From: a virus
DNA length: 44,115 bases
IMG/VR virus record: IMGVR_UViG_3300027668_000031
Span: 1 to 44,115 of that record
Strand: one strand, 5' to 3'
The translations under genes and the position numbers were made by a program. The notes beneath the pieces were generated by a model that was not told the origin of the DNA, made no database searches, and worked only from the letters and a program-made list of their open reading frames with translations. Below, piece by piece: positions 1,069-42,044 of this stretch (position 1 is its first letter; every line of letters begins with the position of its first letter).

Positions 1069-2902
1069 TATAACAGTATATATGAAATACGCTAAATTCG
1101 TTCCTGAACTTAATCGTAGAGAAACTTGGATAGAATTAGTAGATAGAAATAAAGCAATGCATATTAAGAAATATCCAGAGCTTTCAGAAAGAATAAATGA
1201 AGCCTATAAATTAGTATATGATAAGAAGATTTTACCAAGCATGCGTTCACTACAATTCGGAGGTAAACCGATTGAAATTAGCCCTAATCGTGTCTATAAT
1301 TGTGCTTATTTACCAATTGATCACATTGATTCGTTTCACGAAACTATGTTTTTATTACTTGGAGGAACCGGTGTTGGATATTCTGTACAAAACCATCACG
1401 TAAAACAAATGCCACCAGTTAATCAGCCTTATTCTAAAAGAACTAGAAGGTTTTTAATTGGTGATAGTATTGAAGGATGGGCGGATGCTATTAAAGTTCT
1501 TATGAAGTCTTATATGGGAGAAAAAAGAAACTCTACTGTAGACTTTGATTACTCAGATATTAGAGCTAAAGGTGCACAGCTAGTTACTTCAGGTGGTAAA
1601 GCACCAGGACCTCAACCTTTAAAAGAATGTATACTAAAGATTAAAGGTATATTCGACGCTAAAGAAGATGGAATACCGTTGACTACTGTTGAAGCTCATG
1701 ATATAGTTTGTCATATAGCAGATTCAGTTTTAGCTGGTGGTATTCGTAGAGCTGCTTTGATTAGTTTGTTTTCTGCTGAAGATAGCGAAATGATTAGTTG
1801 TAAATCAGGAACTTGGTGGGAGACTAATCCACAAAGAGGTAGAGCTAATAACTCTGCTGTTCTTATGAGACATAAAGTAACCCAAGACTTTTTTATGGAT
1901 TTATGGAAACGTGTTGAGCTATCAGGATCAGGTGAACCTGGCATATATCTTAATAACGATAAAGACTGGGGCACAAACCCTTGTTGTGAAATAGCATTAA
2001 GACCTTTTCAGTTTTGTAACCTATGTGAAGTAAATGCTAGTGATCTCGAGTCACAAGAAGATTTTAACAACAGAGTTAAGCAAGCTAGTTTCATAGGTAC
2101 ATTACAAGCTGGTTACACTAACTTTCATTACTTAAGAGACATATGGAAAGATACGACAGAGAAGGATGCGCTTATCGGTGTATCAATGACAGGGATAGGG
2201 AGTGCCGCTGTGCTGCAGTTGGATATGAAGGAAGCTGCAAATATAGTAAAAAGAGAAAACACGAAGACAGCTAAAGCTATTGGTATTAATCCAGCAGCAA
2301 GATGTACAACCGTGAAGCCTGCTGGGACGACATCTCTGGCACTAGGAACTTCATCTGGTATTCACGCATGGCACAATGATTATTATACACGTAGAATTAG
2401 AGTTGGTAAAAACGAATCTATGTATAAGCATTTATCTAAGCATCACCCTGAATTAGTTGAAGATGAGTTTTTTAGACCTCATGACACTGCTGTTATTAGT
2501 ATACCACAAAAAGCACCTGAAGGTTCTATATTAAGATTAGAATCACCATTTGATTTATTTGAAAGAATAAAGAAAGTTGCACAAGAATGGATTGTTCCTG
2601 GTCATAGAAAAGGATCTAATACTCATAATGTTTCAGCTACAGTTAGTTTAAAGCGAGAAGAGTGGGATCAAGCAGGTAAATGGATGTGGAAAAACAGAGA
2701 TCATTATAATGGTCTATCTGTATTACCTTATGATGGTGGTAGTTATACTCAAGCACCATTTGAGGATATAAGTAAAGTACAATACGATATGGCTATGACG
2801 CATCTAAAAGATGTTGATCTTAGTAAGATTGTAGAAACAGAAGATGAAACAGATCTTGCAGGAGAATTAGCTTGTGCAGGTGATAATTGTGAAATTAAAT
2901 GA
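1040..2902 (+). CDS. nrdJ: Class II adenosylcobalamin-dependent ribonucleotide reductase
   Basis: The enzyme reduces ribonucleotides to deoxyribonucleotides using a B12-derived radical and needs no oxygen. Key residues are all visible: C88 in NCAYLP and C326 form the expected redox pair; the NPCCE motif at 313-317 gives thiyl C315 and E317; GTGVGYSVQ and PAGTTSLALGTSSG are substrate-pocket loops; and the C-terminal CAGDNC (C612, C617) is the thioredoxin-reduced shuttle pair. The layout matches the monomeric Lactobacillus leichmannii type, but at 620 residues it is shorter than that enzyme (about 740), and I see no N-terminal ATP cone. It shares an ATGA overlap with the small membrane gene after it. 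The host or community must supply B12. Confidence 0.95.
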   Translation: MELSNKILSDITVYMKYAKFVPELNRRETWIELVDRNKAMHIKKYPELSERINEAYKLVYDKKILPSMRSLQFGGKPIEISPNRVYNCAYLPIDHIDSFHETMFLLLGGTGVGYSVQNHHVKQMPPVNQPYSKRTRRFLIGDSIEGWADAIKVLMKSYMGEKRNSTVDFDYSDIRAKGAQLVTSGGKAPGPQPLKECILKIKGIFDAKEDGIPLTTVEAHDIVCHIADSVLAGGIRRAALISLFSAEDSEMISCKSGTWWETNPQRGRANNSAVLMRHKVTQDFFMDLWKRVELSGSGEPGIYLNNDKDWGTNPCCEIALRPFQFCNLCEVNASDLESQEDFNNRVKQASFIGTLQAGYTNFHYLRDIWKDTTEKDALIGVSMTGIGSAAVLQLDMKEAANIVKRENTKTAKAIGINPAARCTTVKPAGTTSLALGTSSGIHAWHNDYYTRRIRVGKNESMYKHLSKHHPELVEDEFFRPHDTAVISIPQKAPEGSILRLESPFDLFERIKKVAQEWIVPGHRKGSNTHNVSATVSLKREEWDQAGKWMWKNRDHYNGLSVLPYDGGSYTQAPFEDISKVQYDMAMTHLKDVDLSKIVETEDETDLAGELACAGDNCEIK

Positions 2903-3060
2903 GAAAGTTAGCAATAATTGGAGGTCTTAGCTTGATGACAGCTGGGACTTCATATATGATGTGGCATCCACACGCACCACAGTTTGATTTAAATCCTAAT
3001 ACATTAGCTATAGCTAGTGGAGGTTTTTTTATCGCTGTTGGAATTAGTTATAAATTTTAA
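2899..3060 (+). CDS. Small membrane protein with two hydrophobic segments, 53 residues
   Basis: This gene starts in an ATGA overlap with the stop of nrdJ. The protein has two hydrophobic stretches, about residues 4-20 (LAIIGGLSLMTAG) and 36-50 (LAIASGGFFIAVGI), joined by a His/Pro-rich loop (WHPHAP). This predicts a helical hairpin in the inner membrane. I do not recognise it. The coupling to nrdJ suggests a shared transcript rather than a shared function. It could also be a cryptic holin-like or superinfection protein, but there is no direct evidence for either. Confidence 0.65.
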   Translation: MRKLAIIGGLSLMTAGTSYMMWHPHAPQFDLNPNTLAIASGGFFIAVGISYKF

Positions 3061-3070
3061 AACAAAAAAA

Positions 3071-3190
3071 ATGGCAGAAAAATTCAAACCACACCTGATG
3101 TATAAAGGTAAGAGCTCTACAATGGCTAAAACAATGAAAAAACATCTTGAATTAAAGAAAAAAGGTTATGGACACAAAAAACCTAAATAA
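3071..3190 (+). CDS. Very small basic protein, 39 residues
   Basis: The ORF begins at ATG 3071 right after an A-rich leader (AACAAAAAAA), the start signal type used throughout this window. The product is highly basic and ends in KKKGYGHKKPK, with a YKGKSS stretch near residue 11. Small proteins with a GY-x-HxKP tail are, from memory, common in flavobacterial and crAss-like phages, with no known role. The charge suggests nucleic-acid binding. It lies 10 bases after the membrane gene and before the operon terminator. Confidence 0.6.
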   Translation: MAEKFKPHLMYKGKSSTMAKTMKKHLELKKKGYGHKKPK

Positions 3191-3204
3191 ATAAATAAAA
3201 AGTT

Positions 3205-3252
3205 ATGTGCGGACTATGTCTAGGCGGTATTTGCGAATACTGCAACAGTTAA
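3205..3252 (+). CDS. Candidate micro-ORF with four cysteines, 15 residues
   Basis: ATG 3205 follows a leader of repeated AAATAAAT and the frame encodes MCGLCLGGICEYCNS, then TAA just before the terminator hairpin. Two CxxC pairs separated by four residues (C2, C5, C10, C13) could chelate Zn2+ or an iron-sulfur centre. The leader matches that of confident genes here, and four ordered cysteines are unlikely in a random 15-codon frame of AT-rich DNA. Translation is unproven and no family is known to me. Confidence 0.4.
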   Translation: MCGLCLGGICEYCNS

Positions 3253-3515: not shown

Positions 3516-4148
3516 CTAACATTTCCATCTTGCTCTAGCAGCTTTACCTCTTTCACCTGTCCAACCTTTTGACCTAGCGCAAAATGATTTTCTTCTTTTA
3601 GCAGATTTACTACCAGGTTTTACATCACCGGTAACTGCGGTTTTTAACTTACTTCCTGGATTTTTTTTTTTATATGCAGCAACACCTTTTTCAGTCATAC
3701 CAGCACCTTCTTTAGTAGTTCTAAAATTACGCCCTTTGCCTTTAGTTGTTTTTCTAGGTTCGTTCTTTAATGGAGATTTAAAATTAGAGCCTAAATTTCT
3801 TTTTTTAACTCCTTTTGTAATAGGCCTATCAGCATCGTCACTAGGTAATAATGAAACTTTTTTATTCTTTCTATCATAATAAAATTCTTCTTTTTCTGAA
3901 GCATATTCACCTGTTTTTATTTTGCCTTCATCTCTATATCCTTGCTCAAAATCTTTAATTGCTTTTTTTCTTCCTTTTGTTTTAAGCTTAGCTGGTGAAT
4001 TAGGTTTACAATTTGGTACCATTTTAACTTTACCTGATTCTGTCTTTTTGCCAGAAGGCGAAGGTTTAGTTCCGCTAGCACTGTAACCTTCCCAGCAAGG
4101 ACCTTTTTTCATTACTGGAGAACCTGTGTGTTTCATTTTATAATTCAT
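3516..4148 (-). CDS. Basic protein with CWEGY and RRKSFCAR modules
   Basis: This 210-residue protein is rich in Lys, Gly and Ser and looks largely disordered, with two compact ends. The N-terminal module has CWEGY (C18) and VPNC (C47). The C-terminal module has KRRKSFCAR (C190) and ends in ARWKC (C210). From memory, both short modules recur in proteins of marine phages and algal viruses, always with paired cysteines, but their function is unknown. The gene shares an ATGA overlap with the end of the giant gene, so it is translated with it and may be a virion or injected protein. The middle contains KSPLKNEP, a motif like those in two other proteins here. Confidence 0.75.
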   Translation of the reverse strand: MNYKMKHTGSPVMKKGPCWEGYSASGTKPSPSGKKTESGKVKMVPNCKPNSPAKLKTKGRKKAIKDFEQGYRDEGKIKTGEYASEKEEFYYDRKNKKVSLLPSDDADRPITKGVKKRNLGSNFKSPLKNEPRKTTKGKGRNFRTTKEGAGMTEKGVAAYKKKNPGSKLKTAVTGDVKPGSKSAKRRKSFCARSKGWTGERGKAARARWKC

Positions 4149-7100
4149 GGATTTTTATTTAGATCTATAATTTTATTTACTCTATCTTTTTCGTATTTAA
4201 GTTTTTTAATGGCATCTGTAGTTAAACCTAAACTTCTTAGACTATCTATTTGAACTGATTTATTTAATTTAAACAAATCATCACTCTGTTTTTTTAACTG
4301 TTCAATCTTGTAACTTTCTGTAGTTAATAATTTTTTAGGTTTGTATTGTCTTGTGTTTTTTAATTTATTTTCTTTTCTATATTCTTTTCTACCTTCTTTT
4401 TCAATCTTAAATCTATCAGCTTTTTGAACTTCATTTTCTAATTGCCATTTTGGCCAACCTAAAATCATAGCTACTCTTTGCCAGCTTTCATTTGTTTCGT
4501 CAAGAGCACCTTGAACATTTTCCATTTTTTGGAAAGCTCTATCTACAGGTACGTTAGTTATAGAAGAAATAACTTTTGCAGCAGCTCTATAAGATGGATT
4601 GTTTATATTAAAAGGTTCTTTAGATTCAGGTCTCCAAGAATTCATTTCATAATCTTTTAAACCACCTTTGTATTTTTTTGTTTTTATAGATATAGGTGGA
4701 CTTACTTCTAGTAATTTCCAAGCATTATCTCCATATTCTGGCCCTGGATATTGACCTTCTTTTTTAGATCTTCTATATAAATCTAATAAAACATTTTTAG
4801 CAGTAGCTAATATAACTCCTTGAACACCAACACCTCTTAATATGTTATCTAACATACTATTGGCTGTATTAATATCTGTTTTACTGTCTTTGCTATTATA
4901 ATACTCCATAGCTTTTTCAGCTTCTTTATCACTCATACCTTCATTTTTAAAGTATTCTAAAGAAACATCATCATCATCATCTCCAAAACCAGAAGCAAAC
5001 ATAGCGCTTTGTAAAGCCGTAAACATTAGGTTTTGAACAAATCCATAATACATTATTTTGCTAATATTAGATTTAGGATCTCCTCTGCCAGCTACTAAAT
5101 CTCTACCTGCTTTATCCATTATTCTAGCATATTGAGAGGGAGTGTTGGCAAACGCAAGAATGAATCTACCTAATGTACCAGCTTGTTGTTGAGATATCTT
5201 ATCAGCTCTAGCAGATTGTTGAGACTCTTCAGCCTTTTCTCTAAAATCTAAAAATGCTTTAGCTTCTGCATCGGCTTGATTCATACCTTGTTTCACATAT
5301 GTTTTAGTTCTATTTCTAAAATAAGTTGATCCACCTGTTGCTATAGCAAAGCTATCAGCAAATTGAGTTAAAACAAAACCTCTACTTAATAAATAACTTA
5401 TAACACCTTTAGCACTGTTTCCAGTTGTTTTAGCAGCTTCAGCGATTTCAGACTCTGATACATTTATTTTAAGACCATTACGTCTATCTATTAAAAAGTC
5501 AGAATTCATTAATTTCATGAAATCTGTCCAATATTGTTTTTGATTAGCAAAAGCAGCACCAGCTTTTAAAGGATTATTATCAGTCCAATTTACAAAATTA
5601 ATAGCAGATATAGTTTGTAATACTGCAGATCTAGCGTTTAAGAACATAACTGCACCAACAGAATTGTTTATATAGTCTTGAAACCTAACCTCTAACCTGC
5701 TAGTTCCAGACTTCCTATTCTGACCTGTTTTCATTCTTCTTAAAGAATCTTCAAGAGCTTCCCTATATTTAGGCCCATATGCCGCTTCTAATTTATTTAA
5801 AGTTTTTTCATCAAATGCTAAATCAACATTTTGATTCCACTGTTGTAGTAGTCTAGGTCTAGTATCTTTTCTTAAACCATTTATAAAATCAGTAGTTATA
5901 GTTCCACCTAACCAATCTCCACCTGGGTAATGATAACCATCTTCTTTACCTAGTTCTATTAATTGATCAACAAATAAATTTAATTCCATATTGTCTTCTA
6001 CAAAATCTTTTATTTGATTTAAATCTCTATCAGATAATCCTTCAATGTTAATACCTTGTTTGTTCCAAGCTGCTATTCTAGTTACGTCTTCATATGTAAA
6101 ACCACCAAAAGCTTTCTTCTTTAAATTATTAGGAATACCTTTTAAACTAGATTTTAATGATCTAAAGTCACTCATCAACTGGTTTTGAGCTATTGATAAA
6201 TCGTTCATAGCTCTACCAAAAGGTTTTATTAGATTATCTTGCATCCACGACCATTGAGCCTCACCTTTTTCTCCTTTGGCTAACATTTTATAAAGCAAAC
6301 CACCAAAATCTTGAGCTGACGGTGGTATTAAAGACCAAGAGTTTCTTGTTCTACCTTTCGCTTTAGCTCTCATTGAAGAATATTCTTTATATGTTTCTAT
6401 GCCAGTAGCATCAAAAAGTATATCATTCATTACTTCTCCAACGCTATTACTAAATTTTATTTTAGCTTGTTGAGTTTTAGATTTTACATCTACCACGCTT
6501 AAAGCGACATCTACAGCATCTACGTTTTTCATTGCATCATCTGCAAAATAAAAATCGTTATATCCTTCAGCTGCTTTATCTATTATCCAACTGGATTTGC
6601 CCAGTGGAGAACTATCAGCTAAACCAGTTATGTTTTCTATAGGTATATTTAATCCATTTTCATCTAAAAAAGTTTTAATAGCAGCAGCAGCAGCTTGAGG
6701 CCTGGCTGTTAAAACAAATAAATCTCTACCTCCTTCAGATTGATCCATCATTTTTGCTACTTCTAACAAAGGCCCAGGTTTACCATCTATTACTTGATTA
6801 AACTCAGAAAAATCCCACTCAACACCTTCGTTTGTCATCTTGTCTCCGTCTCTTGCAAATTCTTCTGCTGTTAAAGATCCAGTTTTGCCATCTGGCATGG
6901 TGTATAATACATTACTATTTGTTCTAGCTAAAGTGTCATCAAAGTCAAAAACTCTAATTTTTTTAATTGGAGCATTAGGATCACGAGCTAAATTCAAAGC
7001 TCTGTCTAAGATTTCAGCTTGTCTTATTACTTCCGGATTAGTTGTTTTACTAGCTTTTATATTAGGAACAACTTTACTTTTAGAGTTTGTTTTTATATTT

Positions 7101-10100
7101 TCTTTTGAAGCTTCACCTTTCTTAACATCTAAGTCATTACTATTTACAACGTTTTGTAAATCAATTATTCCTTGTTCTTGAAACATATCAATTTTAGAAT
7201 CAGGCAAACCAGAAAGTTTAGTAACTTGTATTCTTAAACCTATATTAGCAAAACCAGAACTTCCAGGTAATTTTCCATCAATTAATTCAACACCAGCTTT
7301 TTTATAGTTTGTTGGTCCCGTAATAGATTCGTTCGATGTTTTAGCAATAGCTAAACTCCAAGTAGCTTCGCCATCTAAAAAAGGAACAGCGTTGCCTAAG
7401 TTAGAAGGATCTTCTAATGAAGAATCTATAGTGTTTCTTAATTTAAATAAACCACCAGCTTTTTCTCCAGCAAAGCCTCCTTGTTTAGCTATATTCATAT
7501 ATGCAGTGCCATTAGATTTACTAGAATAACCTTCCCCTACGCTATCAGCTGAAAGCACGGTTTTTCTTTGAATTTTTCTTTGAAAACCTTCTGACTGCAA
7601 AACATCTAACACTCTCTTGTCTAATACTTCTCCTATTTTATATGTTACCCATTTTTCAGCATACATTTCTTTACCAACCTCATTTGCTTTATCAACCCAA
7701 TTTTGTATATCAGATCTAGCAGACTCAAGCATATTTAATAGATCCTTATTAAAGCTAAGTTCTTTAGTTAGATTGAAGTTTACTTTTCCGTTGGCGTCTG
7801 TGGTTATTATAACTCCAACACTTCCAAATCTAGCGTTATTTAATTTAAGCTCAACATTAAAAGCGTTCCCACCTATAGTGGCTTCCATATCCGCAGCTCC
7901 ACCTATTTCAGAAGGACCAACACCTATTATTTGTAATGCTGATTCTTTTCCGTTATTTTTTTGCCACTTATTAATACCTCTATCTGTTACATCGTAAACT
8001 AGTTGCTCGGCAGCATAACCAGCTGTTAATCCTAGATTTCTAGCTAGTTCTCTTACTATTTCGTCAAAGTCTTGATTTTTCTTAGTTGTTAAAATCTCTT
8101 TTCTAGCTTTAAAAATTAATTCAGCTCTTTCAGTATCATTAAGATCAACTTCTTCGTCTATTATAGATGCAATAATTAATGATTTTTCTGGGTCACCTAA
8201 TATATTATCGACTCTTACTATGTTTTTTGAAAGTCCTTTTATAGCTTTTTTAATATCTTTAGCCCAGTCTTTCTTGGGTGAAGTTGAATTAAATTTAGTA
8301 TCACCAAAAGTTTCTTGCCAAGCTAAATCAACATTTTCATCTGTAAATCCTCTAGATTTTAGATTTGTAAAAAATTGTTTTCTTTTGTTTAAAAAATCGT
8401 TTTTTAATTCAAGATCAGCATTAGAAGCTAAAAAACCTTTTGAAAATTTAAGATTAACACCTCGACCTATAGCTTTGCTAACGTCTTCTAAGTAAGCGTC
8501 TACAATAACTTCGCCTGTGCCAGAACTATCTAAACCTAATTCAAACTTGCTTAATACATCAGGATTGCCAGAAACTTCCATAACAGCATTTAAAGCTAGT
8601 TCACCTGACAACTTATCAGCTAAAGAATCTTTTCTAGTACCTTTTTTAGAACCTTTTATATCAAAGAAACTTTTAACAGCAGCTGGGTCTGGATATAGCT
8701 TTTTATACAATGTAGGGCCTTGGTTAGTTGTTCCTGATATTAACAATCCAGTACCTTGAAATTTTTCAACTTCAGTAGTTGATAAGTTTTCTTTAATAAC
8801 TTCTGTAAATATTTTATCACCTTTAACTAGTCTTTCAAAAGCCACTAATTTATTAATACTTAAATCAGATATAGCATCTGAGTTTTGGTTTAACCAATTA
8901 ACATAATCTCCTCTTTCTCCAAATGTCTCCATGAACGCTACTCTCAATTCTTCTGATAGTCTAGATTCTAAATTATTATTAAATTCTTTATATATACCAG
9001 CTAAGTCTCTATCGGCTTGCCTCTTTATTTCACCTGTTGGGTTTGTTTTTAAAACTTTTTTAACGTCAGCTAATGTTATTTCAGTTCTTTTACCAGATCT
9101 ATTTTTTCTAGTATACACAAAATCAGGCATTGGAGTTCCTAAAACTTTCTCTGTTGTTTCTAGTATATATTCTCCTAATGGTGAATCTCTTTCTATATTT
9201 AATGATTCTCTTAAGTTTACGTCAGCAACTTGTTCAACAGAAGTTTGATTAGTTTTACTAATTTCAGTAATATCAGAACTACCTAAGTTGTCTATATCTT
9301 TAGAACTAAAATCGTTAAATACTTCTCCTGTTTTTAACACGTCTCCTATTCTATTTCCTAGCCTACTATTTATATAACCATATAAACTATCATTAGTTTT
9401 ATCAAACCCTCTTAGATCAGGCAAGAGCTTAACCTTAACAGCTTGAACAAGTTCTTCTATGTCTAGATTTTTAGTTAGATCAACTACATTTTTATCTTGA
9501 GTAACAAAATTCTTAGCTTTGGCCCTTATCATGCCATCTAGGTCTGATTCTATTTTAGGAAAAAATGCATCAGCTTGAGTATTTTTCTTCCTTAAACCTT
9601 CTTTAAAATTAGGCCATTTTTCTTTTATTTTATCAAACTTTTCATTTATAGATTTCTTAGTTTTTTTAGCTATATTAGAAATAGATTGATCATCTTTTCT
9701 AGCTAAAGTACTAGATGGTGCACTATTACTATTACTTATTAAGTCTTTTATTTTTTTAGCATTAATTTTTATTCTATCCATAAAACCCTTAGGCTTTTCT
9801 TTTAGAAGCTTTTTATTTTCTACTATTAAGTCTGCTTTTGTTTTTGAAGTTTTTGAAAGTTTAGTTTTAGAAGCTGCTATTTTAGAAGATTGAGGCTCTT
9901 GACCTCTATTAATATCTATTACTTCTGTTTCGTTAGTTTCTGATCTTGCTTCTAGTTCGGCTAAAGTTTCAGAACTTATTTTACCTAATCCTATTTCTTC
10001 ACCAAGTTTAACAAAAAAGTTATTTATATCATTTGTACCTTTAAAATCTACTCTAAACTCTCCATCACTAGCTTTCATTAAACCTTGGTTTAATTTCATA

Positions 10101-13100
10101 GCAAAGAAAGCTGTGAAATCTTTGTAGTTTTGTAAATCAACATTACCTGCTGCTACTTCCTCTACAAAAGAAGAGAATACTTCCTCAAAGTCAAAAGTAC
10201 CATCAGAATTCCTTAAGCCATCGGTACCTTCTAAAATCATCTTATTAAAAACATCTGCTTGTTCTGTTCTTAAGAATTCTACTAATATCTTGCCAGACTC
10301 GTTAAATGATTCAGGATCACCTTGTATTAGCTTTTTAGTAGCTCCATGACCTCCCTCGTGTAACGGAACGCCTGGTTTCTGATTGTTAACAGCGTTTTCT
10401 TTTATATTAAACTGCATGTTTAGATCTTCAGCAAAAAATCCATTAACCTCTCCACTTTTCACGCCTTCTATAGCAGCATCTCTTTGTATTTCTAAATCTT
10501 GCTTTTTAGTAATTTCAACTGTTCCGCCATCTTCAGTTTTAGCCTCAATAGTTTCATTAGCCTCTACATCACTTAAACTTTCTATAGCTTCATTATAAGC
10601 TGCTTCTATGTCTTTAACAGCATCTACTTTAGTATCTGAATTTGTATAACCCCATCCACCTTGATCTGCTATAACCTCAGCTTTAGCGTTGTTACTGTCA
10701 TAAGTCTTTTCGTCTATTATTTTAACAGCTTCAGTATTTATCTCAGATTGATCTGGCTTGTAATTAGGATTGTTAACTCTTTCTTGTATATTAGTAACAG
10801 CTTCTGCCTCTATCTCATTTACTACTTTCAAAGATTCATTGTCAAATACAGAATTACTTTTTTGTACAAACCACTCATGAGCAAAAACTTCCCCGTCTAA
10901 AAAGCTTTGATTAATGCTTTGCATTTTTTTGTATTGAGAATTTACTTGCTGCAACCTTACAAAAGCGTCATTGCCAGGAGTAGCGGCACCTGGATCAGCA
11001 GCTAAATTTAAAGCTTCAGTCCTAAGCTTAGCTAAATGTTCTTGGTTTTTAACATATAAAGAAGCTGCCTTGTTTCTCATGCCATCATCGGTAACTTTTT
11101 TCATTAAGTTGTCGTGGTGTTCTTTCATTTCACCATTTAAAACTTCAACCTGTCCTTCTATCTCTATTTTCTTTTTTACTAAGTTGTTTAAATTAAGTAT
11201 ATTTTCTGGTTTTTTTAATGGCCCTTGCTCTATAGATTGGGCTTCTTTTATTTGTAAATTTAAATCGTCAAGTATTTTATGTTTCTCAACTAAAATATCA
11301 TTAGTACCTTTAATTAGCTTAACCTCTTTATTGCTAGAAAAATTAATAGTAGACGAACTACTAAAAGCTTTTCCAGCACCATCTAATATACCTGTTAAGG
11401 CAAAACCACCAGCATAGGCTTCTACAAGCCCCGTTGATAATGGTCGTTGTTCTACTAAGTTATCAAAAAACGTTACACCAATTTCACCTAATCCTTCAGT
11501 ATTACTTTCTTTTAACCAGCTTTTTCCACCGGCTTTTAACTTTTGTCCCCATGAAGTAAACAAAGGTTCTAATGCAGCATTACCACCTTGATTACGTATA
11601 ATCTTATTAAACTTAGCAGCATATTGGCCTGTTGTTAAATACGCAAAAACAAATTCATTAGCTCCAGCAAAAGATAATCTAGACATGTATTCTAAGCCTC
11701 CAGGAGCTATTATTTGATTATTTAACTCATCTATCTTAGTTTTCTTAGTTTCATCAGAAAAATTAGAATTTTTTAAAGCTTTTATCTGGTTTTTAATATC
11801 ATCATTTTTTAAATCTATTTCAGTTTGTTTAGATCCAACGCCTGACAAGCCAGCTATACCAGAAGAAATAGCTGCAGCATAAGAACTACTACCACCTGAC
11901 AATATCATTACAGCCATTATTGGTGCTGTATCTGTAAACATATCTGTACCCCACTCAAAATACGCTGCCAAACCTTCCCAACTATTAAAATTACCTTCTT
12001 CAAAAGTAGAAGTAGAAAAGTTATATTCACTTTTTTCCGTATCTAGCCATTTTTGCATTTGAACATTACCGTGAGCTAAAACTTCAAAAGCATCTATATC
12101 CATATACTTCATTGCCCAAAACATAGGATTAACATACATAGTGAGTGCAGCAGCACCCATAGTTAAATCTTTAGCTAAGTTTAAACCAGATATACCTAAA
12201 TTTACACTAGCTCTTTCAAACTCATTATAATTTTTACTCCAAACATCAATTTGATCTTTAAAACTAGGTATATCCTCTATGTAAGAAGAAAATTTAGATA
12301 TTTGGACTTGCACCATTTTCTCCGATAAAAACTTTTGTGTTTTTAAATTATTATAATTATTTATAGTACTAATAGGCATAAAAGCAACGGCTTGTCCATT
12401 TTCTTTTAAAACTAAATCTTTATCAATATACTCATATAAATTTTCTCCAGCTTTTATAGTATAAACTAAATCTTGTCCTTTATCATTTTTTTGACCGTTT
12501 ACTTTTAAGTAAACATCTTCAAAAATATTTCCATTTTCATCAACTTTTGGCATTATTGAAATACTAGATAACTGGCTTAATCTTCCAGCTTCTGTACTAG
12601 CGTAGTTGTAATTTGAAAAAGAATTATCTCTAAAAAAATTATCTACGTTTTTTCTTTCATGAAATAGATCAAGTCTATTTTTTGCTGTTTCAGATTTAGC
12701 AACAAAAACATCAACACTGGCTTGAGCTTGCTCTAGTAAAAATTTACTTTCTCTATCCATTATAATAGAACTAGCTATACCAAAACCTAAGTTCCTAGCT
12801 TTATTTTCACCAGTTCCAAAAAAAGCACCACCATCTTTTTCTGCCCATTTCTCTACATTATCTTCTGTTACAGCTCTTTCAGCATCGCCCATTAAAAGAT
12901 CTCTAGTTTTATCAACTAATGTTCTAAAGTCTTGTTGAAGAGGATCTTTAGAATCAACAACGTACTCATTGTTTTTATTTAGTAATTCGTCTATAGTAAA
13001 AGCAAGAGGTGGTAAACCGCTACTTTTTCTTTCTAAATTTATTAATTTATAAGCTTGCTTAGCAGTTTTAGCATCTTCATTAACCTTCTTTATAACCATT

Positions 13101-14440
13101 TGAAATCTCTCTACACCTAGTTGAGCAGCTTCAACTCTAGACACATCTCCCGCTACTATGCTTTTAGCAACTTTTTCATAATTAAATTTTTTATCTAATC
13201 TAACTTGTTGTTTTTCACTTATGCCAACTCCACCTTTGTCAACTGGTGTTGATAAAAGAATTTTACTTGACATCTTTATCTTGTCAGCCTTGTCTTTTAA
13301 AGCGCCCCATTGTTCACTATCCCAGTTGTCTAAAACAAACTTCTTTAGTCTATTTTTTTCTCTTAATATTTCTTCTTTCTCTTTAGTTGGGCTTAGATCA
13401 AATTGAAATACTTCAATTTTGCCATTAGGGGCCATAACTTCTACCTTGTCTCTTAAAAAACCAGAAACACCTTCAAGAGGTTTAACTTTAAAATCTTTAG
13501 GTAATAGTAAATCTAAAGTTACTGATGCTTCATCTTCTGTGTTTTTAAATAAGTTTTCACCTAAAACACCATCTAAATAACTTTCTGCTGTGTTTACAGT
13601 TAAGTTATTTAAAGTAGAGTTTTGCCAAGCATTAGAACCTCCTTCAACAGTAACAGTAAAATCTTTTAAAATACCAACGTCATAATCTTTTTCTACTTCA
13701 TTAGTATAATAACCATAACCATCACCTAAAGTTTTTACGAATTTTTGAATATCATAATTTACTTCAGCTAGTTTTTTAATTAAATTAAAATCATCACCAT
13801 TTACTATGTCTTCTATTTTATAATACTTTGTAACTCCATCTTCTTTTTTAGTTATAAATTGACCAATAGTAGACTCACCATCAAATCTCTTATCAGCGCC
13901 TTTAAAATCTTCGCTTGGCACTAGTCCAATATCTGAAAACTCATCAACTTTACCCATCCTCTCTTTTACTACTTTAGATCGTACATAGTAGTCTGATTCT
14001 TTTAAAGTTCTTTTTGTTTTAGCTCTTATTCTTAAATTCTTCACATTAAACCTGTCTTCTATCTCTGGTTTTTCTTCTGGTAATTCTACTTTTTCTAATT
14101 CTTCCTCTTCTTCTATTACAGGTAAATCTATGTTAGTACCGTCAGTTACTACAGGTTTTTGATTTAAATCATCATCACTTAAAATAGGTTCATTAACATT
14201 TTTACCTCTTAATTGATCTATATATATACTACTGGGATATTTATCAGGTGTTACTGTAGCTACATTAACCTTTTTATCTTTCTCAGGATCACCATCTTCA
14301 GGTTCTATAACAGTTTTATCCAATAAAGATATGTCATTATTCTGCTTTAAGTATTCACTTACAGACAATTCTTCATTTTCCGCTGCAAGACCTATTTCGT
14401 CTTCCGTAAACTCTATATCATTATAAAGATATTTATTCAT
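4145..14440 (-). CDS. Giant polyvalent virion protein with zincin, nuclease-like and HAD domains
   Basis: This protein of 3431 residues is probably packaged in the virion and injected with the DNA. I chose ATG 14440, 10 bases after the preceding stop, over the upstream ATG 14488, because the leader is A/T-rich and the protein then opens MNKYLYNDIEFTEDEIG. In order: an acidic N-terminal region; hydrophobic segments near residues 754-780 and 834-868; an HEGGH zincin motif (H1361, E1362, H1365) with Glu pairs at 1419-1420 and 1427-1428 as possible third ligand; a D2184-x12-E2197-L-K2199 pattern like a PD-(D/E)XK nuclease; a full HAD motif set (DFDDT at 2499-2503, T2578, K2615, DD 2634-2635); then a long helical region (about 2900-3150) with FADSFAIATGG and RFILAFANTPSQ, resembling large polyvalent protein-associated domains. 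The last 300 residues are Lys-rich. Its role may be entry, host take-over or both. Domain boundaries are estimates. Confidence 0.85.
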   Translation of the reverse strand: MNKYLYNDIEFTEDEIGLAAENEELSVSEYLKQNNDISLLDKTVIEPEDGDPEKDKKVNVATVTPDKYPSSIYIDQLRGKNVNEPILSDDDLNQKPVVTDGTNIDLPVIEEEEELEKVELPEEKPEIEDRFNVKNLRIRAKTKRTLKESDYYVRSKVVKERMGKVDEFSDIGLVPSEDFKGADKRFDGESTIGQFITKKEDGVTKYYKIEDIVNGDDFNLIKKLAEVNYDIQKFVKTLGDGYGYYTNEVEKDYDVGILKDFTVTVEGGSNAWQNSTLNNLTVNTAESYLDGVLGENLFKNTEDEASVTLDLLLPKDFKVKPLEGVSGFLRDKVEVMAPNGKIEVFQFDLSPTKEKEEILREKNRLKKFVLDNWDSEQWGALKDKADKIKMSSKILLSTPVDKGGVGISEKQQVRLDKKFNYEKVAKSIVAGDVSRVEAAQLGVERFQMVIKKVNEDAKTAKQAYKLINLERKSSGLPPLAFTIDELLNKNNEYVVDSKDPLQQDFRTLVDKTRDLLMGDAERAVTEDNVEKWAEKDGGAFFGTGENKARNLGFGIASSIIMDRESKFLLEQAQASVDVFVAKSETAKNRLDLFHERKNVDNFFRDNSFSNYNYASTEAGRLSQLSSISIMPKVDENGNIFEDVYLKVNGQKNDKGQDLVYTIKAGENLYEYIDKDLVLKENGQAVAFMPISTINNYNNLKTQKFLSEKMVQVQISKFSSYIEDIPSFKDQIDVWSKNYNEFERASVNLGISGLNLAKDLTMGAAALTMYVNPMFWAMKYMDIDAFEVLAHGNVQMQKWLDTEKSEYNFSTSTFEEGNFNSWEGLAAYFEWGTDMFTDTAPIMAVMILSGGSSSYAAAISSGIAGLSGVGSKQTEIDLKNDDIKNQIKALKNSNFSDETKKTKIDELNNQIIAPGGLEYMSRLSFAGANEFVFAYLTTGQYAAKFNKIIRNQGGNAALEPLFTSWGQKLKAGGKSWLKESNTEGLGEIGVTFFDNLVEQRPLSTGLVEAYAGGFALTGILDGAGKAFSSSSTINFSSNKEVKLIKGTNDILVEKHKILDDLNLQIKEAQSIEQGPLKKPENILNLNNLVKKKIEIEGQVEVLNGEMKEHHDNLMKKVTDDGMRNKAASLYVKNQEHLAKLRTEALNLAADPGAATPGNDAFVRLQQVNSQYKKMQSINQSFLDGEVFAHEWFVQKSNSVFDNESLKVVNEIEAEAVTNIQERVNNPNYKPDQSEINTEAVKIIDEKTYDSNNAKAEVIADQGGWGYTNSDTKVDAVKDIEAAYNEAIESLSDVEANETIEAKTEDGGTVEITKKQDLEIQRDAAIEGVKSGEVNGFFAEDLNMQFNIKENAVNNQKPGVPLHEGGHGATKKLIQGDPESFNESGKILVEFLRTEQADVFNKMILEGTDGLRNSDGTFDFEEVFSSFVEEVAAGNVDLQNYKDFTAFFAMKLNQGLMKASDGEFRVDFKGTNDINNFFVKLGEEIGLGKISSETLAELEARSETNETEVIDINRGQEPQSSKIAASKTKLSKTSKTKADLIVENKKLLKEKPKGFMDRIKINAKKIKDLISNSNSAPSSTLARKDDQSISNIAKKTKKSINEKFDKIKEKWPNFKEGLRKKNTQADAFFPKIESDLDGMIRAKAKNFVTQDKNVVDLTKNLDIEELVQAVKVKLLPDLRGFDKTNDSLYGYINSRLGNRIGDVLKTGEVFNDFSSKDIDNLGSSDITEISKTNQTSVEQVADVNLRESLNIERDSPLGEYILETTEKVLGTPMPDFVYTRKNRSGKRTEITLADVKKVLKTNPTGEIKRQADRDLAGIYKEFNNNLESRLSEELRVAFMETFGERGDYVNWLNQNSDAISDLSINKLVAFERLVKGDKIFTEVIKENLSTTEVEKFQGTGLLISGTTNQGPTLYKKLYPDPAAVKSFFDIKGSKKGTRKDSLADKLSGELALNAVMEVSGNPDVLSKFELGLDSSGTGEVIVDAYLEDVSKAIGRGVNLKFSKGFLASNADLELKNDFLNKRKQFFTNLKSRGFTDENVDLAWQETFGDTKFNSTSPKKDWAKDIKKAIKGLSKNIVRVDNILGDPEKSLIIASIIDEEVDLNDTERAELIFKARKEILTTKKNQDFDEIVRELARNLGLTAGYAAEQLVYDVTDRGINKWQKNNGKESALQIIGVGPSEIGGAADMEATIGGNAFNVELKLNNARFGSVGVIITTDANGKVNFNLTKELSFNKDLLNMLESARSDIQNWVDKANEVGKEMYAEKWVTYKIGEVLDKRVLDVLQSEGFQRKIQRKTVLSADSVGEGYSSKSNGTAYMNIAKQGGFAGEKAGGLFKLRNTIDSSLEDPSNLGNAVPFLDGEATWSLAIAKTSNESITGPTNYKKAGVELIDGKLPGSSGFANIGLRIQVTKLSGLPDSKIDMFQEQGIIDLQNVVNSNDLDVKKGEASKENIKTNSKSKVVPNIKASKTTNPEVIRQAEILDRALNLARDPNAPIKKIRVFDFDDTLARTNSNVLYTMPDGKTGSLTAEEFARDGDKMTNEGVEWDFSEFNQVIDGKPGPLLEVAKMMDQSEGGRDLFVLTARPQAAAAAIKTFLDENGLNIPIENITGLADSSPLGKSSWIIDKAAEGYNDFYFADDAMKNVDAVDVALSVVDVKSKTQQAKIKFSNSVGEVMNDILFDATGIETYKEYSSMRAKAKGRTRNSWSLIPPSAQDFGGLLYKMLAKGEKGEAQWSWMQDNLIKPFGRAMNDLSIAQNQLMSDFRSLKSSLKGIPNNLKKKAFGGFTYEDVTRIAAWNKQGINIEGLSDRDLNQIKDFVEDNMELNLFVDQLIELGKEDGYHYPGGDWLGGTITTDFINGLRKDTRPRLLQQWNQNVDLAFDEKTLNKLEAAYGPKYREALEDSLRRMKTGQNRKSGTSRLEVRFQDYINNSVGAVMFLNARSAVLQTISAINFVNWTDNNPLKAGAAFANQKQYWTDFMKLMNSDFLIDRRNGLKINVSESEIAEAAKTTGNSAKGVISYLLSRGFVLTQFADSFAIATGGSTYFRNRTKTYVKQGMNQADAEAKAFLDFREKAEESQQSARADKISQQQAGTLGRFILAFANTPSQYARIMDKAGRDLVAGRGDPKSNISKIMYYGFVQNLMFTALQSAMFASGFGDDDDDVSLEYFKNEGMSDKEAEKAMEYYNSKDSKTDINTANSMLDNILRGVGVQGVILATAKNVLLDLYRRSKKEGQYPGPEYGDNAWKLLEVSPPISIKTKKYKGGLKDYEMNSWRPESKEPFNINNPSYRAAAKVISSITNVPVDRAFQKMENVQGALDETNESWQRVAMILGWPKWQLENEVQKADRFKIEKEGRKEYRKENKLKNTRQYKPKKLLTTESYKIEQLKKQSDDLFKLNKSVQIDSLRSLGLTTDAIKKLKYEKDRVNKIIDLNKNP

Positions 14441-14450
14441 ATAATTATAT

Positions 14451-15833
14451 TTATTTAGATTTAGGTAGCAGTGCAACTGCCATAACACGTTTTTCTATAC
14501 CTGCTGCTTCTCCCAATAGGAAGCTTAAGCTTTTAGGATCTGTAAAATCGTAAATTAAAGCATCTCCACTTTTATCTACTATCTTACCATTTTTCATTTC
14601 GTAAATTTCTTTTCCCTCTAATTTATTTAATTGAGTTAAAAACTCTTGATCTGTTTTTATAGCACTAGAAGCTTTAATTATATTACCTATGTCATCTTTT
14701 CTGGATTCTAATGTTTGATTAGTATAAGGTGTTCTTTGATTTTTAGGTTTTTGTTCTGTTTTTAAATATTTTCTTTCTGTTAAATTTAAATTTTTAATTC
14801 TATCATCTACAGATTTTTTTATCATTAATTTTCTAGCTTCTTCTTTTTGGAGTTTTAAAAATGATTCGCCTTGTTCAAGACTGAAAGTTGATGGAAAAAC
14901 TCCCCACTCTGTATCTTTCATGTTTATATCTATTCCTTCATAATCATTATATACGTCAGCCCATAATATAGACATTGATTCATTATCTTCAACAACCTTG
15001 CTAAACGCGTTGCTTTTATTCATACTACTTTTTAATAAATTTATTTTATCTGGAGTTATATATCTATATATATCTTGATTTTCTATATCACCAGGCGTAG
15101 GTTCGTACTCATATGTTACATATGGTGATTTTAAGTTTTCTGGATGTAGATAATTATCAACAATTTTAGTATCAAATTCACTGTTATCAGGAATAGTTTT
15201 TATAACATTTCCATTAGCTTGCATTTTAAGTAACTCTTCTATGTTTATATTAGCAGCGTTTTCTGTGTTGTTTTTAGGGTTAAATAAAAATAATTTACCA
15301 TCTCTAGATATTATATTAGTATCACCTCCATCAGCTATGCTTAATAAAACTTCTTGCATTTCTGAATTTGTAGTAGAACTTATAGCTCCAGGCATGCCAG
15401 GTTTGATATTTTGTTTTTCTTTTAAGTCCTTAGCTAGCATCAATATCTCAGGCGCTACCATTTTGTATGTGTTGACTTGTTTGTTTATAGTATCTAAAGC
15501 TTGTTTGCCTCTAGTAGAGTCAATATCACCGCTAGCAATACCGTTCTTTATTTTAAAATATTCATCAACTTGAGAATTCCAAAAGTTCCTTATGTTAACA
15601 TTGAATTTATCATCTCCACTGCTAAAATTAGATATTCTATCAGAGAAATTATTTTTATCTCTTAATCCTCTTTCGTATACAATTTGCTGGTTTTTTCTAT
15701 GAGCAGCCATTTGTCTTCTAATGTTTTCAAAAGTTCTTTCTCTTTGAGCGTTCATCTGTTGATTTGCCTTAGCAAATACGTCAAATTCTCTGTTTACTAT
15801 TCTCTGTGGATTGCTATATGCGTTGTTTGCCAT
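14451..15833 (-). CDS. Putative internal virion protein, 460 residues
   Basis: I do not recognise a named family. The N-terminal quarter is helical and basic (ANQQMNAQRERTFENIRRQM). The middle mixes charged and Asn-rich segments, and a second helical region spans roughly residues 320-360. There is no signal peptide, membrane segment or cysteine cluster. Its place between an ejection-type protein and the giant polyvalent gene suggests that it is an internal core or DNA-ejection protein, in the position held by T7 gp15/gp16-type genes. The gene ends 10 bases before the preferred start of the giant gene. Confidence 0.6.
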   Translation of the reverse strand: MANNAYSNPQRIVNREFDVFAKANQQMNAQRERTFENIRRQMAAHRKNQQIVYERGLRDKNNFSDRISNFSSGDDKFNVNIRNFWNSQVDEYFKIKNGIASGDIDSTRGKQALDTINKQVNTYKMVAPEILMLAKDLKEKQNIKPGMPGAISSTTNSEMQEVLLSIADGGDTNIISRDGKLFLFNPKNNTENAANINIEELLKMQANGNVIKTIPDNSEFDTKIVDNYLHPENLKSPYVTYEYEPTPGDIENQDIYRYITPDKINLLKSSMNKSNAFSKVVEDNESMSILWADVYNDYEGIDINMKDTEWGVFPSTFSLEQGESFLKLQKEEARKLMIKKSVDDRIKNLNLTERKYLKTEQKPKNQRTPYTNQTLESRKDDIGNIIKASSAIKTDQEFLTQLNKLEGKEIYEMKNGKIVDKSGDALIYDFTDPKSLSFLLGEAAGIEKRVMAVALLPKSK

Positions 15834-15856: not shown

Positions 15857-16603
15857 TTACCCTTGCTTAAGACCAAAGCTAGCTACTGAGCCTAGTGTAG
15901 ATCCAAAAGCTGCACCCATATCTACAAAAGCTTGACTTCTAGCAGCGTTTGCGTCTGCTGCATTTTGTTGATTATTCTGCATCATTCCAGCTGCAAAACC
16001 CATATCCGCTATAGATCTATTTTCTAACTGAGTCATTTCAAATTCAGCACCTCTACCTTGTAGTTCAGCTGCTTTCATAGCGCCTTCACCTTTTAATTGA
16101 TCTGCTCTTTGTTGTCCTTCAGCTTTCATAGTAGCCACATCCATGGCTCCTTTTGCTGATAATTTTTGGTTTTGAGATTCTTGTTGTTGTATATCTGCTG
16201 ATATTCCTTTTTTAGATTGAAGAGCTGCTTGAGCTAAAGCTGTAGCACCACCTGATCCCATACCAGTTTTCATCATAGTATCTAAACTATTGGCTAGCGC
16301 TATATCAGCTTGTTCTGCTTGAAATTCTGCTGCTTGTGTTGCAACGCCTAAATTAGCAAAAGTATTAGTCATTCCAGCAAATGGATTTTGTATATTTTCA
16401 AAAGCGTTTGTTACCTCCCCATATGGGTTTGTTATCTCAGGTCTATTAGCTCTTGCTTCTTTTAATTCACCAGCATACATTTCTGCTTGTTCTAAATATC
16501 TACCTTCTGCGTCTTTAGCTCTTTTGGCTGCTATACCGTTTCCAACCATTTGACCTGCTAAGCCTACGCCTGCTACTATTAAAGATGCTGTAACTGCTGC
16601 CAT
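15857..16603 (-). CDS. Putative DNA-ejection / internal virion protein
   Basis: This 248-residue protein has a hydrophobic N-terminus (MAAVTASLIVAGVGLAGQMVG) and then a long Ala/Gln-rich helical part. The central motif NIQNPFAGMTNTFANL, the GSGGATALAQAAL stretch and the following ISADIQQQESQNQKL repeat pattern match, from memory, proteins of marine podoviruses placed with T7 gp14-like internal virion proteins. Such proteins leave the capsid with the DNA and help to form a channel through the cell envelope. The N-terminal hydrophobic helix and amphipathic tail are consistent with this. The acetyltransferase gene lies just upstream, 6 bases away. Confidence 0.7.
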   Translation of the reverse strand: MAAVTASLIVAGVGLAGQMVGNGIAAKRAKDAEGRYLEQAEMYAGELKEARANRPEITNPYGEVTNAFENIQNPFAGMTNTFANLGVATQAAEFQAEQADIALANSLDTMMKTGMGSGGATALAQAALQSKKGISADIQQQESQNQKLSAKGAMDVATMKAEGQQRADQLKGEGAMKAAELQGRGAEFEMTQLENRSIADMGFAAGMMQNNQQNAADANAARSQAFVDMGAAFGSTLGSVASFGLKQG

Positions 16604-16609
16604 AATTTA

Positions 16610-17020
16610 TTAATTTATAATTTTTACTATTTCATGTGAGGGCTTATCATCTACTTTCCACCCTAATTTCTTGTGTGTATCTATTAACTTGCTATTTCTA
16701 CCTATAGTAAACATGTATTTATAACCTAAGTCTTTAGATATAATTTCAGCTGCTGTTATAAGAAGCTCTATCGCGTCCCCTCTGTCATCTTCTTTGTAAT
16801 CTGGATTAGATACTATCCATTCTAATAATAATGCTTTAGAATTAGTCATATACATAAATCCAGCTACTATAGGTGTATTGTTTTTTTCTATCATTAAACC
16901 GCCCGTACCATTGTTTGGTAAAAAATCTTTAGATGGCGCTGACCAACCAGGCCACTTATTCCACCAAGTAGTTAAAATATCGTAATCTTTATCTACTAAC
17001 TTCCTTGCTTTTAATTCCAT
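16610..17020 (-). CDS. GNAT-type N-acetyltransferase
   Basis: The 136-residue protein has the layout of GNAT enzymes, which transfer acetyl groups from acetyl-CoA to amines. It opens with an RKLVDKDYDILTTWW segment, then GGLMIEKNNTPIVAGFMYMTN (beta hairpin), LLEWIVSNPDY (beta 4), a helix where the acetyl-CoA loop should be (DDRGDAIELL), and ends with a LIDTHKKLGW helix. The usual Q/RxxGxG/A loop is degenerate, so activity is not certain. Proteins of this kind sit among tail and core genes in several marine phages. A virion protein or a host protein could be the substrate. A 24-bp palindrome lies directly upstream. Confidence 0.75.
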   Translation of the reverse strand: MELKARKLVDKDYDILTTWWNKWPGWSAPSKDFLPNNGTGGLMIEKNNTPIVAGFMYMTNSKALLLEWIVSNPDYKEDDRGDAIELLITAAEIISKDLGYKYMFTIGRNSKLIDTHKKLGWKVDDKPSHEIVKIIN

Positions 17021-35398: not shown

Positions 35399-35670
35399 TT
35401 GCTTCTCCCTTCTGCAAAACCTTTAAAAGTTTTTTGATCTTTAACTTCTTTAGGTTTTTCATTTAAAATATCTTCCTCCAATTGTATTCTAGTTAATATT
35501 TCAAAAGCGTCGAATATAGCTAATTTTTTAGTTGCGGCAGCATTTTTTAATCTATCAGCGCTTAAGTCGTCGTCTGAGTCTACAATCTTTTCTTTTGCTA
35601 CCTTAATTAGTTCTTCAACTGCTTTTTGTCCAGCTTGGATTATATTTTTTTTCGTTTCCTTTACATTCAT
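35395..35670 (-). CDS. Small terminase subunit candidate
   Basis: The 91-residue protein is helical and ends in an ATGA overlap with terL. A conserved-looking core, DDLSADRLKNAAATKKLAIFDAFEIL, occurs from memory in small proteins directly upstream of terminase genes in Bacteroidota phages. Small terminase subunits recognise phage DNA and hold the motor. It is short for that role and has no obvious helix-turn-helix, so it may be only part of the recognition machinery. Its start lies 56 bases inside the preceding gene. Confidence 0.55.
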   Translation of the reverse strand: MNVKETKKNIIQAGQKAVEELIKVAKEKIVDSDDDLSADRLKNAAATKKLAIFDAFEILTRIQLEEDILNEKPKEVKDQKTFKGFAEGRSK

Positions 35671-36220
35671 GGATTACGGCTATATTATTTGATTTCATAC
35701 AATAGAGTCTATCTTCTCCAATAACAAATTCAAATTCTGAATCTGGAGAAAAACTCACTAAATCACCAACGTTAACTTTTTTGCTTTTTAAAGAGTTATT
35801 ACAGTATTTTACTATACCTAATAACTCTTTTTCTTTTAAGTTGCTTAAAGTTGAAGTATCTTGCACTGGTGACACAAAACAGTAGTTTAAATTACATTCT
35901 AGTTCATTATTTCTTTTGTATAAGTATATTTGACTTGGAGAACAAAAATATAAATCATCTTTAAAGTAAGTTGAACCATTTCTTTCTTTACCTTTAGTGT
36001 CATACCATCTTCTAAAAATATTGTGATGAATATAAACTTCATCACCTATTTTAATTTCAGTACTATTATGATGTGGCTCAGAAACAATTAAAGCTTTTTT
36101 ACTTACAAAAACGTGACTCTCTATTTTAGTGTTTAAAATAAGTTCTTTGTCTTGAAATTTAATTTTATTGTCGTATCTGTAATTTAAAGGTTTTACTATA
36201 AAGTCGTATAAAGATTTCAT
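35615..36220 (-). CDS. Protein with two GroES-like beta-barrel repeats
   Basis: This 201-residue protein appears to hold two copies of a GroES-type fold. Copy 1 is about residues 24-102, with KIGDEVYIHHN then DLYFCSPSQIYLY. Copy 2 is about 111-183, with GIVKYCNNS, VNVGDLVSF and DRLYCMKSNNIAVI. The pattern 'GD-V-x-hydrophobic ... LY-x-hydrophobic ... I' matches the end of co-chaperonins. A conserved-looking tail KKYNPSWTKSS follows. The gene precedes the terminase genes. It may be a structural barrel or an extra co-chaperonin for the phage GroEL. It lacks an obvious GG-hydrophobic mobile loop, so binding to GroEL is doubtful. Confidence 0.6.
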   Translation of the reverse strand: MKSLYDFIVKPLNYRYDNKIKFQDKELILNTKIESHVFVSKKALIVSEPHHNSTEIKIGDEVYIHHNIFRRWYDTKGKERNGSTYFKDDLYFCSPSQIYLYKRNNELECNLNYCFVSPVQDTSTLSNLKEKELLGIVKYCNNSLKSKKVNVGDLVSFSPDSEFEFVIGEDRLYCMKSNNIAVIHECKGNEKKYNPSWTKSS

Positions 36221-41787: not shown

Positions 41788-42044
41788 AAAACAACAACTA
41801 CATCCATATCTTTAATAACATGAAGATTTTCTTTATCTGAATCTATTTTAAATCCAGCATGCCTGTCATAATATATTTTATCGTTATTTTCAATAAATTT
41901 AACTTCAGAACCAACACTAACTACTACCGCTTCCCTGTATCTAATATCTTCTCTGTCGTTTTCGCCTAGAATTAAACCACCCTCTGTTTTTTGGGTGGTT
42001 TTATTTTCTTTTTTAATTATTATATACCTTCCTACTGCTTTCAT
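41784..42044 (-). CDS. groES: GroES co-chaperonin
   Basis: This 86-residue protein is slightly shorter than E. coli GroES (97). It has the mobile loop (NKTTQKTEGGLIL) with a Gly-Gly pair and a hydrophobic tripeptide LIL, which corresponds to the GroEL-binding IVL. The C-terminal half has YYDRHAGFKI and HVIKDMDVVVVL, typical of the barrel edge. It overlaps groEL by ATGA and the winged-helix gene by 4 bases. A 9-bp inverted repeat lies inside the mobile loop coding region. It would cap the phage GroEL to fold capsid or tail proteins. Confidence 0.85.
   Translation of the reverse strand: MKAVGRYIIIKKENKTTQKTEGGLILGENDREDIRYREAVVVSVGSEVKFIENNDKIYYDRHAGFKIDSDKENLHVIKDMDVVVVL

Follow-up and report, generated by a model that had tools for sequence, protein, structure and literature searches.

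The window analysed here is the IMG/VR record IMGVR_UViG_3300027668_000031, a viral DNA of 44,115 bases. It contains a giant open reading frame (ORF) on the minus strand, which starts with an ATG at 14440, the best start of this ORF, stops at 4145 and comprises 3431 codons. Coordinates and length agree with the first-pass annotation, in which the strand was not stated. The encoded protein is probably a polyvalent protein that is ejected into the host together with the phage DNA, and its features are compiled in Table 1. With the whole protein as query, Pfam and PDB sequence searches gave essentially no match, and the PHROGs search gave a single one, phrog_415 (polynucleotide kinase, 1.4e-6), over the HAD domain. 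Profile-based sequence searches of solved structures revealed nothing useful, and neither half of it matched anything in a collection of 50,697 phage records.

Table 1. Features of the giant gene and its upstream neighbours (aa, amino acid residues; Cys, cysteine)
Feature	Position	Strand	Basis
Giant coding sequence, 3431 aa, no Cys	4145..14440	(-)	ORF reading, Cys count
Zincin-like metallopeptidase domain, aa 1240-1500	9941..10723	(-)	Invariant residues, AlphaFold2 model, VIA matches
HEGGH, aa 1361-1365	10346..10360	(-)	Shuffle test, family enrichment
Third zinc-ligand candidate, Glu1420	10181..10183	(-)	Invariant; in second helix of the model
Sigma-70 region-2-like domain, aa 1600-1712	9305..9643	(-)	Pfam, NCBIfam and VIA, each sub-threshold but concordant
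Possible PD-(D/E)xK nuclease-like domain, aa 2142-2263 (D2184, E2197, K2199)	7652..8017	(-)	Kept in four relatives; low-confidence model
HAD domain, T4 Pnkp 3'-phosphatase-like, aa 2492-2660	6461..6967	(-)	PHROG 415, VIA, conserved active site
HAD motif I DFDDT, aa 2499-2503	6932..6946	(-)	Shuffle test, alignment
Conserved C-terminal block, aa 2690-3160	4961..6373	(-)	52 loci; polyvalent-protein fold matches
460-aa gene, candidate second ejection protein, no Cys	14451..15833	(-)	Gene order, Cys count
248-aa gene, hydrophobic N terminus, candidate first ejection protein, no Cys	15857..16603	(-)	Gene order, Cys count
136-aa structural-module gene (phrog_17252), synteny anchor to Manatee Spring, elemoA and phi38:1 phages	16610..17020	(-)	Homology

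The HEGGH sequence, earlier proposed to be a zincin motif, occurs far above chance, as shuffled giant proteins contain on average 0.002 HExxH motifs each. When 26 divergent sequences were aligned over 821 residues, no column was invariant except H1361, E1362, H1365 and E1420, the set expected of a zincin. AlphaFold2 models were built for residues 1240-2060 (predicted local distance difference test, pLDDT, 71.8) and 2060-3231 (pLDDT 62.5). The zincin-like part is modelled as strands followed by the HExxH helix, with the glutamate in the next helix, which is a zincin-like secondary structure. VIA matched zincin-fold chains over the domain, with PPEP-1 at a Z of 5.1. 

The four HAD motifs (I to IV) reported in the first-pass annotation are all present as well (D2499/D2501, T2578, K2615 and D2634/D2635), motif I is far above chance (0.011 expected per shuffle), and the catalytic residues are intact in 106 aligned rows with isolated exceptions only. 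The domain combines the HAD fold with the DxD, T, K and DD motifs, as expected of a T4 Pnkp-like 3'-phosphatase. When the modelled domain was compared by VIA-align, T4 Pnkp was the first match, above other HADs, with a Z of 12.7 and a root-mean-square deviation of 2.2-2.6 over 115-127 residues. Instead of the generic label phosphatase given before, the domain is best described as polynucleotide 3'-phosphatase-like, and polynucleotide 3'-phosphates would be its predicted substrate. It differs from T4 Pnkp in being part of a giant protein, in an identity of about 16% and in the lack of a kinase in the window protein, a kinase being inserted in the relative L066.

A first search revealed five close relatives of the giant protein. 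With the C-terminal block as query 52 loci were found, and the HAD domain retrieved more than 514 IMG/VR stretches. ORFs of relatives that contain both HExxH and the HAD motif are about 2300 to 3760 residues long. Among 67 distinct family members with complete 5' ends HExxH was observed 62 times against 0.18 expected, and in 59 of the 67 it is located 829-1169 residues upstream of DFDDT. The HAD domain is not universal, as it is kept in 36 of the 48 loci selected by the C-terminal block.

The terminase, portal and capsid genes of the record resemble those of podoviruses of Flavobacteriia. The terminase is 63% identical to that of the uncultured Manatee Spring podovirus and 46% to that of Flavobacterium phage elemoA, and Cellulophaga phages are also among the matches of the structural genes. 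The giant gene closes the structural operon as the last of three late genes of rising size (248, 460 and 3431 residues), an arrangement that resembles the ejection cassettes of T7, P22 and N4 with their three genes. Both smaller genes recur in relatives. A giant gene likewise ends the structural module in Manatee Spring (3859 residues), elemoA (gp21, 3694 residues) and phi38:1 (gp101, 1691 residues), and the 136-residue gene and other neighbours are homologous across these phages. The elemoA and phi38:1 giants are annotated as structural proteins; all three are almost free of cysteine and two of the three have HExxH. A late position at the end of the operon, part of what had been regarded as unusual, is the normal place for such proteins.

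The giant protein contains no cysteine in 3431 residues, while 17.9 are expected at the rate of the other window proteins (Poisson 1.6e-8); the first-pass annotation had not noted this. The whole family has two cysteines in 182,988 residues, and the 460- and 248-residue neighbours have none. In a small, hand-chosen control set, only 2 cysteines were counted among the 7,952 residues of known ejected proteins of T7, N4 and P22, whereas the remaining proteins of these phages that were included have 101 among 12,426 residues. This is an empirical mark measured here and not a textbook criterion. The near-absence of cysteine may be a general and simple sequence mark of ejection proteins that is usable in uncultured phages. 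The virion RNA polymerase (vRNAP) of N4, gp50, is an ejected protein of 3500 residues with a C-terminal HExxH subdomain and the last of a gene triplet with gp51 and gp52 (PMC12633501). It has zero cysteines and HExxH was found in it, so that it resembles the window giant in size, gene order, HExxH and cysteine content. Unlike N4 vRNAP, the window giant has no RNA polymerase domain match and has a sigma-like domain instead.

That sigma-like domain was overlooked in the first reading of the sequence and is arguably the best candidate for the host take-over that had been suggested. Searching the record with Pfam Sigma70_r2 (PF04542) gave a single match, 9335-9475, with 4.3e-4 and 15.9 bits at a curated cut-off of 24 bits. 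In slice searches Sigma70_r2 was the best Pfam match of the window protein (0.013) and reached 9.9e-5 in L049. Among eight slices searched against NCBIfam, sigma70-ECF was the top match for the window protein (0.0017), L049 and L069, which are members of divergent subgroups, and all five NCBIfam matches of L049 are sigma families. A profile of 30 real sigma factors matched at the correct place only in L049 (0.0062), the decoys giving 0.25 and 2.4. For the first model, the top rows in VIA were sigma-70 region 2 chains over residues 1600-1712, with Z 5.8-6.6; for helical folds such values lie under the level at which caution is advised. The profile match in sequence and the predicted fold coincide at the same residues. 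On balance we regard residues from about 1600 to 1712 as sigma-70 region 2-like, which is a statement about the fold; binding to RNA polymerase would follow only by inference. In contrast to sigma-70 factors, the giant protein has no recognised region 4, its scores stay below the cut-offs and the domain is embedded in a protein of the virion module.

The third motif proposed earlier, D-x12-E-x-K, was rejected as a stand-alone nuclease motif, as a shuffled protein is expected to contain about two and the observed count is reached in 87% of the shuffles. The pattern itself is present, though not above chance, and only the conservation of GGxAD...FNVELK in L003, L004, L005 and L035 lends it weight; L007 has an unrelated segment there. 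In many relatives this slot is occupied by a conserved EHxxPA domain. It was found in 34 of the 67 family members (e.g. L104, residue 1821) and precedes the HAD domain, or directly the C-terminal block where HAD is missing.

Three relatives (L066, L057 and L035) contain 130-200 additional residues between HAD motifs I and II. These inserts were at first suspected to be inteins, an idea that was dropped as the L066 insert (residues ~2175-2370) is a P-loop kinase (Zeta_toxin family profile, 6.2e-13) and the L057 insert at the same HAD position (residues ~1990-2120) is ART-like, its top match being ART-PolyVal with a weak 0.036. A P-loop also occurs in L065, at the point of HAD where L066 has its kinase, and the L035 insert is a domain without a family name. 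In L013 (residues ~2200-2620) two similar repeats are inserted near the end of HAD, with a match to Pfam DUF6934 (2.2e-6).

Such mixing and matching of modules is typical for polyvalent proteins (PMC5512222), in which zincins are the commonest domain (Iyer et al. 2017, PMC5512222). Several disparate enzymatic or effector domains (zincin, HAD and sigma-like) are combined in the giant ORF, further modules are found in relatives, the HExxH helix is followed by a helix with Glu, and the gene lies beside virion structural genes. Compared with viral predicted structures, the second model strongly matches several proteins of uncultured viruses and also many whose annotation reads large polyvalent protein or PolyVal ART, with about 12% identity over 700-1000 columns. 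As to the LPD-like segments of the first-pass annotation, the C-terminal half resembles LPD- or PolyVal-annotated proteins in its predicted fold; in sequence, family searches gave no LPD or PolyVal match in the giant protein, and the LPD38 Pfam profile was silent, as was its control. The likeness to phage polyvalent proteins (PMC5512222) comprises the giant multidomain build, the virion neighbourhood, the zincin metallopeptidase, swapped effectors including the ART-like insert and the C-terminal fold. What differs here is the Pnkp-like HAD phosphatase together with the sigma-like domain, and LPD families that are unmatched by sequence. In the text of PMC5512222 the word "sigma" is absent, and "HAD" gives three matches, those displayed being the verb "had". 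A polyvalent protein that combines a Pnkp-like phosphatase with a sigma-like domain is a new combination.

We consider it probable that the giant is an ejected polyvalent protein, namely the largest or third ejection protein of an uncultured flavophage-like podovirus. The injected take-over factor suggested earlier is in part and indirectly supported, as far as the injected polyvalent protein is concerned, by the gene position, the absence of cysteine including the two neighbours, the zincin and the C-terminal fold. In this scheme the protein would be packaged in the virion and would travel through the tail, probably in unfolded form, either together with the DNA or ahead of it. Once it is inside the host, its zincin may split it into functional pieces, the HAD of Pnkp type may take 3'-phosphates off nucleic-acid ends, and the PD-(D/E)xK-like domain could act on host or rival nucleic acid. 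The sigma-like domain would engage the host RNA polymerase and start or bias early transcription. It is a tentative and rather doubtful idea that the ejected virion protein carries the region-2-like domain into the host and so redirects the host RNA polymerase at entry, before phage gene expression, as a sigma-based alternative to the injected polymerase of N4. A sigma-like domain inside an injected protein would be new.

Several results weigh against this interpretation or parts of it. The region 2 scores (14-18 bits in the window protein, 22.5 in L049) are all below the curated cut-off, Sigma70_r2 was matched in only two of 26 family members, and in control slices, taken from the segment that follows, the best match by chance was 0.0029. 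A profile-profile comparison by hhalign found the correct place with a probability of 6.5%. Foldseek alone gave no match at E<=0.001 against the PDB for either model. The nuclease region is poorly modelled, with D and E-x-K on predicted strands at pLDDT 35-45, and has no fold match. Hydropathy revealed no clear transmembrane segment in the giant protein. Sequence similarity between the window giant and those of elemoA, phi38:1 and Manatee Spring is undetectable, so that positional equivalence alone is claimed. Finally, some non-ejected structural proteins are cysteine-free as well, and given also the size and choice of the control set the absence of cysteine is supporting, not decisive.

The giant could instead be mainly a structural ejection or tunnel protein, with the helical scaffold as a periplasmic or inner-membrane conduit and the enzyme folds as unused relics. 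Its C-terminal half is long, helical and the most conserved part, and the operon position is like that of T7 gp16. We regard this explanation as unlikely, since the domains have diverged strongly except at their catalytic residues, which are the most strictly conserved positions, and relatives even gain enzyme-like inserts, e.g. the P-loop kinase. The place in the structural operon would also suit a late intracellular maturation factor, in which protease and nucleic-acid end processing act in assembly without injection, and zincins can be maturation proteases. The resemblance to ejected proteins in cysteine content, the annotation of the positional equivalents as structural proteins and the polyvalent fold matches make this very unlikely. 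The parallels to N4 gp50 (size, position, C-terminal HExxH subdomain, no cysteine; PMC12633501) raise a further explanation, namely that the giant is a virion RNA polymerase like those of N4 or crAss but has diverged beyond recognition. Neither the giant protein nor any of 34 relatives gave a match to an RNA polymerase family, the fold models beginning at residue 1240, and we consider such an origin highly improbable.

As an ejected polyvalent protein, the giant would link an abundant family of giant proteins of uncultured marine phages, with hundreds of relatives, to ejection and to the first stage of host take-over. Its predicted domains are separable: a protease that would process the protein itself, a phosphatase that would heal the ends of nucleic acids and, possibly, a sigma-like domain that is injected.

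We also looked for hosts by means of genome contigs with family members. The matches were mostly short contigs in bins of unrelated taxa and were judged to be binned phage DNA, which made them unusable for assigning a host. The phage contigs L155-L165, for instance, are in bins labelled Aliivibrio, Woesearchaeota, Clostridiales and others, which is probably due to binning contamination. Elsewhere in the record a phage GroEL is encoded at 42041-43579 and, at 35615-36220, a protein with matches to phage families of GroES type. A gene for ribonucleotide reductase (1040-2902) is located close to the record's end, on the opposite strand.

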